Source: Epilithonimonas arachidiradicis (GTDB lineage: Bacteria > Bacteroidota > Bacteroidia > Flavobacteriales > Weeksellaceae). Taken from it: a DNA stretch of 64,000 nt. Shown piece after piece: positions 43,967 through 46,743 of the stretch. Within the stretch, counting starts at the first letter, position 1. Every line of letters begins with the position of its first letter. A program made the translations under genes and the position numbers. The notes beneath the pieces are model-generated. The model was not told where the DNA came from. It searched no databases and was given only the letters and a program-made list of their open reading frames with translations. The stretch is from the NCBI RefSeq assembly GCF_003610695.1, contig NZ_RAQH01000002.1:124001-188000 (forward strand). The letters run 5' to 3'.

Positions 43967-45247
43967 CTATTGAAATCTGTAATTAGCTTCTGGTAAGGTA
44001 TTATTCTTCAAAAATTCTTCATACTCCGGAGAGAGAATTGCTCTTCCGTAGGTGTTCTTTCCGGACATGCCACCTAATCTGATTTTATCTTTTCCGTATT
44101 TTGAATTCAGTTTATCAATCGCTTTCATAATAGGAATATGCTTGGAATCGATATCATTTTCAAAAAGATTAATCAGTCTTTCGTTATCAGGAACAAAATC
44201 CGAAACCATCACGCCAGCTTTCTTGTAATGAAAGCCTTCTTTGTAAATCGCTTCAAATATAGAATGGGCGTACTTTGCCAAAACAATCGATGAGCTGCTG
44301 GGATTCGGAAGAACGATAGAAAATCCGTCCTTATATTCGCCCAATTCTTTCCGGAATCTATTAGTTTGAATAAAAACACTAATGACTTTGCAACAGGAAT
44401 TTTGTTTTCTCAATTTTTCTGCACAATAGATGGCGAAAGTTTCGATACGTTCTGCTATTTCCTCCTTATTAGTAACCATTTTCATAAAGCTTCGGCTTAC
44501 CATTATCGATTTTTTATCAGAAGCTTTATCAAGTTTCAGCTGCGGAATTCCCTTCAGTTCGTTAATCATTCTTACACCGTGTATTCCCATAATTTTCCGA
44601 ACCCACATTTCAGGTTTTTGAAGCAGATCCCAAGCCTTATAGACACCACTATCTTTCATTTTAGCGCTAAGTCGCCTTCCTATTCCCCATACATTCTCAA
44701 TATCGAGGTTTTTTAATGCTTCTTCTATTTTTTCTTTAGAATCCATTATATAGACACCACTAGCATATCTGTCAGTTTCTTTTTTTACAATGTGATTGGC
44801 AATTTTGCAAAGCGTCTTTGTTGGAGCTATTCCGATGCTTGTGGGAAGTTTAAGATCATCATTAATTTTTTGTCTGATTTTACAACAATACTCATTCAGA
44901 TTAAAATATTTGAAACCGTTAAAATCCAAAAATAACTCATCAATGCTATAGATCTCATATGCACCGTTTGGTAAAAAACTTTTTGCCATTTCCATCACTT
45001 GCTGACTACGAAAATTATAAAGTTCAAACTTCGCAGATAAGACTTTAACATTGTTTGCGGCGAACAGATCTTTGTATTTAAAAGCAGGAGCGCCCATTGG
45101 GATTCCAAGTTCTTTGGCTTCATTGCTTCTGGACACCACACATCCGTCATTGTTAGATAATACTACAACAGGATGATCCTCTAGTGTAGGATCTAAAGTT
45201 CTTTCACAGGAAACAAAAAAATTGTTGCAGTCGAGGAGTGCGTACAT
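43967..45247 (-). CDS. umuC: Y-family DNA polymerase, UmuC-like
   Basis: A 426-residue translesion polymerase subunit. The N-terminal MYALLDCNNFFVSCERTLDP carries the first catalytic Asp, YSIDELFLDFNGF the acidic pair, and the palm-fingers segment VVVLSNNDGCVVSRSNEAK matches UmuC more than DinB/Pol IV. The C-terminal part (about 235-426) contains the little-finger domain. It is divergent from an S24/LexA-like regulator gene, and its start codon lies inside a palindrome (45245-45258), so it is probably controlled by that regulator. No umuD is present; the S24 protein could take part of that role, but this is inference. Confidence 0.95.
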   Translation of the reverse strand: MYALLDCNNFFVSCERTLDPTLEDHPVVVLSNNDGCVVSRSNEAKELGIPMGAPAFKYKDLFAANNVKVLSAKFELYNFRSQQVMEMAKSFLPNGAYEIYSIDELFLDFNGFKYFNLNEYCCKIRQKINDDLKLPTSIGIAPTKTLCKIANHIVKKETDRYASGVYIMDSKEKIEEALKNLDIENVWGIGRRLSAKMKDSGVYKAWDLLQKPEMWVRKIMGIHGVRMINELKGIPQLKLDKASDKKSIMVSRSFMKMVTNKEEIAERIETFAIYCAEKLRKQNSCCKVISVFIQTNRFRKELGEYKDGFSIVLPNPSSSSIVLAKYAHSIFEAIYKEGFHYKKAGVMVSDFVPDNERLINLFENDIDSKHIPIMKAIDKLNSKYGKDKIRLGGMSGKNTYGRAILSPEYEEFLKNNTLPEANYRFQ

Positions 45248-45265
45248 AATAAATTATGACATAAT
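45245..45265. promoter_or_regulatory. Palindromic operator candidate at umuC start
   Basis: CATAATAAATTATG (45245-45258) and the overlapping ATTATGACATAAT (45253-45265) are perfect inverted repeats. They cover the umuC start codon and leader and share TAAATTAT[AG]ACA with the operator candidate at 45317-45335. Confidence 0.65.
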
Positions 45266-45277
45266 ATTTCTTAAGAA

Positions 45278-45285
45278 CAAATTTA
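45278..45285 (-). promoter_or_regulatory. -7 element of umuC promoter
   Basis: TAAATTTG on the minus strand (45285 to 45278), a perfect match, 30 nt before the umuC ATG. Confidence 0.65.
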
Positions 45286-45308
45286 GTTACATATTTGAAC
45301 AAAATTTG

Positions 45309-45316
45309 TATTTTTG
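45309..45316 (+). promoter_or_regulatory. -7 element of S24-regulator promoter
   Basis: TATTTTTG, a perfect match, directly followed by the palindrome at 45317. Confidence 0.7.
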
Positions 45317-45335
45317 TTGTTATAAATTATAACAA
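45317..45335. promoter_or_regulatory. Perfect 19-nt palindrome, operator candidate of the S24 regulator
   Basis: TTGTTATAAATTATAACAA has two perfect 9-nt half sites around a central A. It abuts the -7 element, covers the expected transcription start and ends on the first base of the regulator's ATG. Autoregulation is likely. Confidence 0.75.
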
Positions 45336-46111
45336 TGTCAATTTTTTCAGATAATATCAGGTTTTTAAGAGCTAAGAAAGAAATCACTCAGCAAGATTTG
45401 GCAGATACATTAATCATTACAAGGTCAAGATATGTTTCCTACGAAGATGGACGTTCGGAACCACCAATTGAAGTGTTGATTAAAATGTCAAAATTTTTTA
45501 ATGTCAGCATTGATTTGCTTTTGACGGTGGATATCAAGAAATATCCGTTGGAAGAAATGATGAATCTCCCCGACAATAGGATTTTGTTACCCATAATTAT
45601 AGATGAGTCCGGAAATAACAGCATAGAAATCATTCCACAAAAAGCTTCGATGGGTTATCTGTCGGGTTACAGCGATCCAGAATATATCGAAAGTCTGCAG
45701 CGGATTTCATTGCCATTTTTGACTAATGGAAAGTATAGAGCTTTTCCTGCGCAGGGCGATTCTATGCCGCCCTTCAAAGATGGTTCCTACATCATTGGGA
45801 AATATGTGGAAGATATTGAAGATTTGAAAAAGAACAAAAGTTACATTTTTGTGACTCTGAATGACGGAATTTCCTACAAACGATTTAAGTCTAAAAATAA
45901 ACAGTCGATTGAGGTAGCTGCGGACAATTCTTTCTATAAGCCTTATGAGATTCCGCTGGGTGAGATTATGGAAATCTGGCAATATGCATCGGGTATTTTT
46001 CCGGAAGATTTTGAACCGGAAGATTTTGATAATTATAACCTTAAAGATATGTTTCTGGAAATAAGAAAGGACATCAAACTATTAGATGAAAAAGTTTCCA
46101 ATTCCAAATAA
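45335..46111 (+). CDS. XRE-type HTH regulator with S24 (LexA/UmuD-like) peptidase domain
   Basis: A 258-residue cytoplasmic regulator. Residues 1-65 are an XRE helix-turn-helix (FLRAKKEITQQDLADTLII then SRYVSYEDGRSEPPIEVLIK). Residues about 100-225 are an S24 domain with Ser143 in QGDSMPPFKDG and Lys182 in DGISYKRFK, the LexA/UmuD Ser-Lys dyad. The expected Ala-Gly cleavage site is not clear; the region reads PQKASMGYLSGY, so self-cleavage is uncertain. The tail (about 225-258) is acidic then helical. The gene is divergent from umuC, 23 nt upstream of alkB, and has a perfect palindrome at its own promoter. A DNA-damage-responsive repressor is the likely role. Confidence 0.88.
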   Translation: MSIFSDNIRFLRAKKEITQQDLADTLIITRSRYVSYEDGRSEPPIEVLIKMSKFFNVSIDLLLTVDIKKYPLEEMMNLPDNRILLPIIIDESGNNSIEIIPQKASMGYLSGYSDPEYIESLQRISLPFLTNGKYRAFPAQGDSMPPFKDGSYIIGKYVEDIEDLKKNKSYIFVTLNDGISYKRFKSKNKQSIEVAADNSFYKPYEIPLGEIMEIWQYASGIFPEDFEPEDFDNYNLKDMFLEIRKDIKLLDEKVSNSK

Positions 46112-46134
46112 TTTTAAATTCTTAATAAAAATCT

Positions 46135-46743
46135 ATGCAGCTTAGTTTATTCGATTCAGGCGATTACTACCAGTTTCCTGCGGAGTTATTGGACTATACC
46201 GAGCATTTTTTGTCTGAAGATAAAGCAACCAGTCTTGAGAAAAAACTCATCGAAAGTGTTCCATGGAAACAGAGAATGCAGAAGATGTATGATAAAGAAG
46301 TGCTCACTCCACGTTTGACTGCTTGGTATGGCGACGATGATAAGTCTTATCATTTGGGAGGTAATAACTTCAGTGTGAATGCCTGGACGCCGGAGCTTTT
46401 GAGCATAAAGTATAAAATCGAAAAACTGACGGGTCACAAATTTAATTCCGTATTGCTGAATTTTTACAGAGATGGGAACGACTCTGTAGCTTGGCATCGT
46501 GATAAAGAAAGCGAATTAGGAAACCGTCCGGTAATTGCTTCTGTGAGTCTCGGTGAGATAAGGAATTTTGATTTCAGAAAAAAAGACAATCATCGGAATA
46601 AGTACAGTTTACCCTTGCAGCACGGTTCTCTGCTTATTATGAAAGGCGACCTGCAAACCAATTGGGAACATCGGATTGCTAAATCCAACAGACCAATGAG
46701 ACCACGTATTAATCTTACTTTTCGTCAGATTCGTGAATTATAA
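46135..46743 (+). CDS. alkB: Alpha-ketoglutarate-dependent DNA dioxygenase AlkB
   Basis: Oxidatively removes alkyl groups (1-methyladenine, 3-methylcytosine) from DNA or RNA using Fe(II) and 2-oxoglutarate. It has 202 residues. The iron ligands are His121 and Asp123 in VAWHRDKE and His179 in NWEHRI; the 2-oxoglutarate arginines are in RPRINLTFR (Arg189/191). The start MQLSLFDSGDYY is usual for the ALKBH2/3-like bacterial group. It is 23 nt behind the S24 regulator gene, which suggests joint control with umuC. Confidence 0.95.
   Translation: MQLSLFDSGDYYQFPAELLDYTEHFLSEDKATSLEKKLIESVPWKQRMQKMYDKEVLTPRLTAWYGDDDKSYHLGGNNFSVNAWTPELLSIKYKIEKLTGHKFNSVLLNFYRDGNDSVAWHRDKESELGNRPVIASVSLGEIRNFDFRKKDNHRNKYSLPLQHGSLLIMKGDLQTNWEHRIAKSNRPMRPRINLTFRQIREL

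Follow-up and report, generated by a model that had tools for sequence, protein, structure and literature searches.

In the Bacteroidetes no LexA homologue has been found, and phage-like S24 repressors run the SOS response (Sanchez-Osuna et al. 2021, PMC8565304). The same source describes up to five S24 paralogues in Weeksellaceae, several of which have diverged palindromes with an unchanged dyad-spacer layout. The regulator of Elizabethkingia anophelis binds TTAC-AAATT-GTAA in electrophoretic mobility shift assays and is induced by mitomycin C along with a divergent error-prone polymerase (PMC8565304). The present analysis concerns a cassette of umuC, an XRE/S24 repressor gene and an alkB-like gene in a 64,000-nucleotide stretch of Epilithonimonas arachidiradicis DNA (contig NZ_RAQH01000002.1, positions 124,001 to 188,000; hereafter the window). 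With a probability of roughly 0.82, this cassette is a self-contained DNA-damage switch working like the non-canonical LexA of Bacteroidetes. Because of its likeness to the switches described in PMC8565304, it is a variant of a published switch type. A reading made previously from the letters of the window (the sequence-only reading) had proposed a non-canonical, SOS-like S24 switch which lacks a LexA box and represses a translesion synthesis polymerase and itself. This core idea, already known in kind, holds and appears well supported, since the regulator resembles a published, tested family and its operators are conserved and co-vary with it; one of the two palindromes assigned to it is not a conserved operator. 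What is new here is that, on comparison of homologues, residues 31 and 34 of the regulator predict base 2 of the operator. The analysis further points to an apparent exchange of operators and helix-turn-helix (HTH) domain as one block, and to a cassette which seems private and payload-swapping.

Organization of the locus

The three open reading frames and their orientation were as the sequence-only reading had described them. The umuC gene (43967-45247, minus strand) encodes a Y-family translesion polymerase of 426 amino acids with Pfam IMS/IMS_C domains. It matched NCBIfam PRK03609 with 316.7 bits, short of the cut-off of 431, and possesses at residue 101 the motif SIDELFLD, which we take to be the active-site motif of UmuC. 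The XRE/S24 repressor gene (45335-46111, plus strand) encodes 258 amino acids. It is followed after 23 bp on the same strand by a gene for an ALKBH3/ALKBH2-like 2OG-Fe(II) dioxygenase (46135-46743; Pfam 2OG-FeII_Oxy_2), and the two are likely co-transcribed. In the comparison with the PDB, alkB homologs 3 and 2 were closest to the dioxygenase (alkB homolog 3, 8jnr, E 3.1e-40). Only 87 bases separate the umuC start from the regulator ATG, so both promoters must fit within this gap. No umuD is present beside umuC, and no phage genes were recognised by eye among the listed open reading frames of the window. The nearest named relatives of the regulator belong to Epilithonimonas, Chryseobacterium and Kaistella species.

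Operators and promoter elements

A perfect odd palindrome, TTGTTATAAATTATAACAA, is situated at 45317-45335, and its last base is the A of the regulator ATG. A 19-mer palindrome with 9-base arms is expected by chance in 0.54% of cases (5000 Markov-1 simulations of a 141-nt region). This palindrome, already noticed in the sequence-only reading, contains the 15-bp operator O1, GTTATAAATTATAAC (45319-45333; dyad TTAT-AAATT-ATAA). Counting the window, 114 of the 137 non-redundant loci have an O1 with a core score of at least 10 that begins 16 bases before the regulator ATG; the O1 palindrome is deeply conserved. Directly upstream lies the -7-like element TAnnTTTG of the regulator promoter, TATTTTTG (45309-45316, plus strand), which the previous reading had likewise placed against the palindrome; TANNTTTG is found at the same offset in 110/114 non-redundant loci. 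Its mirror image, CAAANNTA, occurs at -57 from the regulator ATG in 90/114 loci, and the window has there the -7-like element of the polymerase promoter, CAAATTTA (45278-45285, minus strand; TAAATTTG on that strand). Both assignments follow a promoter consensus, and no convincing -33 box could be placed by eye at the expected spacing in either promoter.

A second, likewise conserved operator, O2, is predicted at 45286-45300 (GTTACATATTTGAAC), between both -7 elements and adjoining the polymerase-side one. It is less perfect than O1, and the distance between the centres of the two is 33 bp in the window. The right half of O2 has the base predicted from the recognition helix in 82/114 loci (shuffle mean 30; 0/20000 shuffles reach this value), and the left half in 62/114.

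The sequence-only reading had overlooked O2 and paired O1 with two overlapping palindromes at the umuC start (45245-45265). Its proposal can be stated as an explanation in which O1 would function together with the palindrome at the umuC start, these two being the operators in use, and the switch would sense alkylation damage. The umuC-start site at 45246-45260 does score as a T-type operator: its core score of 10/13, with T in both halves, equals that of O2, and it may for this reason be a lineage-specific third operator, if a weak one. It also resembles GTCATAAATTATGAC, which is present in L181, L182 and L221, three loci with the same helix core as the window, TRSRYVSYE. Against this, at least one such site is expected by chance in the region in 8% of simulations, and the palindromes, though present as letters in the window, are not at the same place in 8/8 other UmuC-type loci (L010, L011, L015, L052, L071, L073, L040 and L041; the upstream letters of L040 and L041 are identical to those of L010 and L015). 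Of the 6 genomic copies of TAAATTATRACA, the core said to be shared by both palindromes, 4 lie away from the locus (reversed control, 2). It is O2, not the umuC-start site, which co-varies with the helix, the regulator has no Pfam domains besides HTH and S24, and nothing in the analysis points to alkylation as the signal. The proposal is thus improbable. Conservation in relatives holds for O1 and not for the umuC-start site, and it favours the pair O1 and O2.

Two recognition-helix residues, 31 and 34, predict operator base 2

The operator arms vary across relatives (GTTAY/RTAAC, GATAC/GTATC, GCTAT/ATAGC and GGTAC/GTCCC), and the arm type follows residues 31 and 34 in the recognition helix TR[31]RY[34]. 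In the window, helix residues Ser31 to Val34 are encoded at 45425-45436 on the plus strand, and Ser31/Val34 is paired with GTTAY...RTAAC. Read as a two-residue code, valine or isoleucine at 34 would go with T at base 2; otherwise Val31 would go with A, Gly31 with C, and Asp31 or Glu31 with G. A rule was fixed on the discovery loci L008-L119, from which Ala31-Ser34 was also added, and then applied to loci fetched later. It matched 129/146 half-sites of 73 discovery loci, a value reached by 0/20000 shuffles. Among the 122 loci fetched for the held-out set, 43 were dropped as at least 95% identical to another and 79 were kept; kept loci below 45% identity to the window protein were displayed and left uncounted. 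Both a prediction and a site scoring at least 11 in the core were available for 46 held-out regulators, and of their 92 half-sites 77 agreed with the rule (shuffle mean 30.5; 0/20000 shuffles reach it). The matches comprised 37 left and 40 right halves, with at least one half matched in 44 loci. For held-out regulators less than 80% identical to any discovery regulator the result was 51/60 half-sites (30 loci), and below 70% identity 25/32 (16 loci). Three loci without upstream sequence (L081, L083 and L220) were left out, and the main counts do not include L039, which at 29% identity falls below the 45% limit.

Residues 34 and 31 also lead all 257 columns of 128 regulators in information on operator bases 2 and 14. 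Their excess information is 0.86 and 0.71 for the left half and 0.85 and 0.84 for the right, while the next-best columns reach 0.47 and 0.50 and the best columns of the S24 domain 0.31 and 0.35. Phylogenetically independent pairs were counted on a tree of the S24 domain, made by a quick method from 137 rows (132 in the pair tests), with 52 of its 134 inner branches left open. For the T class 8.3 of 10 pairs went the same way and 0-0.5 the opposite way, for the A class 6.8 and 0 of 10, and for the acidic-G class 6.8 and 0 of 8. The sign tests of these three classes gave median p values of 0.008-0.022, with 0.07 for the worst random pairing. The sign test of the C class was not significant (3.7 and 0.2 of 6 independent pairs; median p 0.125). 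On the same tree (132 rows), the T class changed at least 21 times in the helix and at least 23 times in the operator. The S24 repressor family may therefore be read as a natural series with repeated joint changes of one operator base and two residues of the helix.

Superposition of the predicted HTH on DNA-bound P22 c2 (3jxb_D) gave Z 11.3 and a root mean square deviation (rmsd) of 1.4 over 65 residues (model 2-66 on chain 4-68), so residues 31 and 34 align with residues 33 and 36 of P22 c2. In P22 c2, Val33 is found in a pocket of thymine methyls (PMC3865217, citing Watkins 2008). No recognition code for the non-canonical LexA family was found in open-licence PMC main texts, and the two-residue code would predict operators of uncharacterised Bacteroidetes regulators.

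Apparent exchange of operators together with the HTH

SOS repressors are known to change their DNA motif in evolution, and how repressor and operator change jointly has been unclear. In phage immunity regions, operators and HTH move as a unit. Among regulators with S24 domains at least 85% identical, HTH identity was 0.87 within the same class (318 pairs) and 0.64 between different classes (335 pairs). At the DNA level, L054 and L188 share 91-93% identity in the polymerase, 80% in the intergenic region, 64% in the HTH, 92% in the linker and 89% in the S24 part. L153 and L239 represent the converse pattern (intergenic 100%, HTH 90%, S24 60%). These two are the cleaner examples of 19 hand-chosen pairs, most of which are less clean. 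Operators and HTH thus appear to be exchanged as one block, and selection for HTH divergence could contribute to the HTH differences. We lean, with some reserve, to the view that SOS repressors of the non-canonical LexA kind are rewired by swapping a specificity block of ~250-300 bp (both operators and the HTH) between conserved cassettes. The base-2 two-residue code would go with this block, the polymerase (UmuC or DinB-type) and the downstream AlkB would be swapped too, and the cassette would be a modular private mutagenesis switch. Pairs such as L054/L188, in which operators and HTH differ most, make such rewiring testable with small mutants.

Genome-wide distribution of the operator

The exact O1 pattern, GTTAYAAWTTRTAAC, occurs in the genome of the window at O1 only. 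An orthologous regulator is present in 14 of 23 genomes of the genus, whole in 13 (at least 84% identity) and as a fragment in one (G017). Each of these 14 genomes has exact GTTAYAAWTTRTAAC once, always at the regulator ATG. The cassette is probably a dedicated local switch, as this exact operator stands once per genome and always at the regulator start codon. Among the other 9 genomes, 7 are without exact GTTAYAAWTTRTAAC and two have one each elsewhere; these GTTAC-type operators without an orthologous regulator are at G009:C47:58739-58753 and G011:C23:176852-176866. In G017 (C22:17518-17812) the operator and the first 93 regulator residues are left as a fragment, with the Y-family polymerase still opposite.

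The repressor could instead be a global SOS regulator acting genome-wide, since related repressors of other families govern numerous repair genes (PMC8565304). The single exact operator in the genome speaks against this, and near matches are not in excess either: a regulon beyond the locus was rejected because GTTAYAAWTTRTAAC with up to two mismatches was not enriched in the genome of the window (70, against 104 in the reversed control). A genome-wide role therefore has little chance of being correct.

The genome of the window possesses two further paralogues. L038 (G000:C7:72196-72966) is opposite a DinB-type polymerase and has the operator GCTATAATTTATAGC, while L031 (G000:C11:155633-156397) has an imperfect operator and no polymerase match nearby, and its frame meets a TAG after 254 codons, close to where such genes normally end. 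Insulation of paralogues by different operator classes within a genome had been expected and was not supported. On an incomplete, hand-compiled list of paralogues, 21 pairs were of the same class and 32 of different classes (shuffle mean 15.0 same), and 9745/10000 shuffles were at or below the observed same-class count. Some other homologues stand without a neighbouring polymerase match. The regulators of L086, L087, L094, L203, L204, L209, L212 and L213 are shortened to 226-227 amino acids, have Ser31 with Ile or Ser34, and show no good O1 in those with sites listed. Those of L146, L148, L149, L151, L152, L189 and L190 are Val31/Ser34 regulators, again with no good operator in those with sites listed.

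The regulator protein and the proposed mechanism

The regulator is composed of an HTH (residues ~5-66), a linker and an S24 domain with Ser143 and Lys182. Pfam identified HTH_3/HTH_19/HTH_31 and Peptidase_S24; at E 0.001 it assigned no DNA-binding model of LexA. The predicted model aligned to P22 c2, LexA and UmuD', in the last two mainly through residues 122-224. For the HTH, the top VIA match was 2kpj, an entry whose title names LexA of Eubacterium rectale and whose Z of 11.7 is on a par with that of P22 c2; such a match list is no test of a LexA-type winged-helix domain. The Ser143-Lys182 dyad pointed out in the sequence-only reading is invariant, along with Gly107, in 209/209 loci of at least 45% identity. 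The predicted scissile bond is Met106-Gly107 (45650-45655, plus strand). It is Met-Gly in 190/209 homologues and Ala-Gly in the other 19, and Ala-Gly in 22/23 homologues below 45% identity; these dyad and bond counts include near-identical loci.

On the proposed mechanism, a dimer of the XRE/S24 repressor would bind O1, over the expected transcription start of its own gene, and O2, between the facing -7 elements, with residues 31 and 34 reading base 2 of each half-site. Occupancy of both operators would repress umuC leftwards and the regulator-alkB operon rightwards. The centre spacing of 33 bp, about three helical turns, would suit cooperative binding on one face of the DNA. After damage to the DNA, RecA filaments would make the repressor cleave itself at Met106-Gly107 through Ser143/Lys182, and the UmuC translesion polymerase and the AlkB demethylase would be released jointly.

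Several points weigh against the cassette being such a switch. The mean core score of O2 (7.0) is not above that of AT-rich offsets (-37: 7.3; -59: 7.2); O2 is singled out because its base co-varies with the helix, the core score alone being insufficient. The exact-pattern search is blind to degenerate sites such as O2, and weaker targets may exist elsewhere. The held-out set contains 58 regulators of at least 45% identity; in 7 of them a site of core score at least 11 is lacking, and in 5 (L203, L204, L230, L240 and L241) the rule does not cover the helix pair. Of these 5, L230 (Ile34, T/T) and L240 (Glu31, G/G) fit an extended rule made post hoc. The C class is noisy, its second half-site often not being C. 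Finally, the scissile bond is Met-Gly and not Ala-Gly.

The last point opens the way to an explanation in which Met-Gly, common to most homologues, weakens the site so far that the repressor does not cleave itself; the S24 domain would then serve as a dimerisation and sensing module only, with another release signal. The invariance of Ser143, Lys182 and Gly107 argues against it, UmuD is cut at Cys-Gly (PMC8565304), and L230, which has the exact operator published for E. anophelis, also has Met-Gly, which suggests that this bond is compatible with induction. The model has pLDDT below 50 over residues 93-129 and so says nothing on the Met-Gly loop. Taken together, loss of self-cleavage is rather unlikely, and a self-cleaving, LexA-like repressor is preferred.

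Payload genes of the cassette

A divergent Y-family polymerase is situated within 400 nt of the regulator in 107/137 non-redundant loci. Opposite regulators ~90% identical and followed by the same alkB, the gene is either umuC or a DinB-type polymerase, depending on the relative. In L043, the one locus inspected, the DinB-type polymerase is followed by a DnaE-type gene ('DinB-type' and 'DnaE-type' being a reading of translations by eye); operons with such genes have been reported (PMC8565304). The clpS-like and CBS-domain-like upstream neighbours of the window (named by eye) are kept in the Epilithonimonas-like UmuC-type loci L040, L041 and L052. The M28-like downstream neighbour is common to these and to the DinB-type loci L042-L045 and L055, and weakly L047. 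In two Chryseobacterium loci, L069 and L071, the umuC match ends after residue 103, and in L069 it begins ~1.6 kb from the regulator, which suggests insertion or decay.

A further possibility is that the released S24 fragment doubles as the UmuD' partner of UmuC, making the regulator a two-in-one, UmuDAb-like protein. UmuD' (1ay9) can be aligned with the S24 domain at Z 10.6 and rmsd 3.3 over 97 residues, but LexA and lambda CI match it equally well. A Peptidase_S24 search listed no UmuD-sized S24 frame in the UmuC-type genomes G000, G004, G016 and G022, a weak negative because the same search missed the regulators of G004 and of the window, the latter scored above cut-off by hmmscan. Moreover, regulators ~90% identical face a DinB-type polymerase, and service to UmuC is therefore not what maintains the fragment. 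This dual role is accordingly very improbable. In G017, a 156-residue S24 frame lies ~1 kb or less from a Y-family polymerase match.

The tie to alkylation repair proposed in the sequence-only reading stands as gene linkage: alkB is directly downstream of the regulator in 12/13 genus orthologues, window included. It is not universal, being found in 52/209 loci and 25/137 non-redundant ones. In open-licence PMC main texts, no report was found that connects alkB to an S24/umuC cassette of Bacteroidetes; a paper on the Streptomyces LexA regulon mentions alkB (PMC9380542).

Comparison with known systems

The closest system is the non-canonical LexA of the CTAA-N5-TTAG group, with its Weeksellaceae paralogues and Elizabethkingia anophelis WP_078407279.1 (PMC8565304). 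The probable placement of the window regulator beside it rests on shared architecture and on L230 with its published operator. Both possess an N-terminal HTH_3 (PF01381; Pfam, with which the fold agrees) and a C-terminal S24 domain with a Ser-Lys dyad (Ser143 and Lys182 here), a divergent error-prone polymerase (here umuC, 87 bp from the regulator) and a 4-N5-4 palindrome in their own promoter, TTAC-AAATT-GTAA in E. anophelis and TTAT-AAATT-ATAA in the window. The window differs in having TTAT-N5-ATAA and not CTAA-N5-TTAG, UmuC where most relatives have a DinB-type polymerase, and AlkB beside the regulator; alkB has no occurrence in the main text of PMC8565304. Its Met106-Gly107 in place of the Ala-Gly bond is the reason why the regulator is called a variant working like non-canonical LexA.

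Other systems are more distant. Francisella FddR (PMC13148647) is also a phage-type S24 repressor whose targets form a small local unit that includes a divergently oriented gene, in some cases dinB, but it belongs to a different clade with the motif GTG-N11-CAC. Diverged FddR proteins are described there as keeping one motif, whereas in the window family motif and helix change together. Acinetobacter UmuDAb (PMC11332147) is likewise an S24 repressor, acting on error-prone polymerases in the absence of LexA. It is UmuD-derived and has the co-repressor DdrR, whereas the window protein, with 258 amino acids, carries an XRE HTH which UmuD and UmuDAb lack. Canonical LexA shares the S24 fold and the Ser-Lys dyad with the window regulator, and RecA-driven release would be expected for both. 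The N-terminal domain is HTH_3 in the window regulator, in which Pfam finds no LexA-type winged-helix DNA-binding domain, against the winged HTH of LexA, and the window has no LexA box. Among the phage repressors P22 c2 and lambda CI, the HTH of P22 c2 superposes on that of the window regulator, whose cassette is chromosomal and situated beside DNA repair genes.

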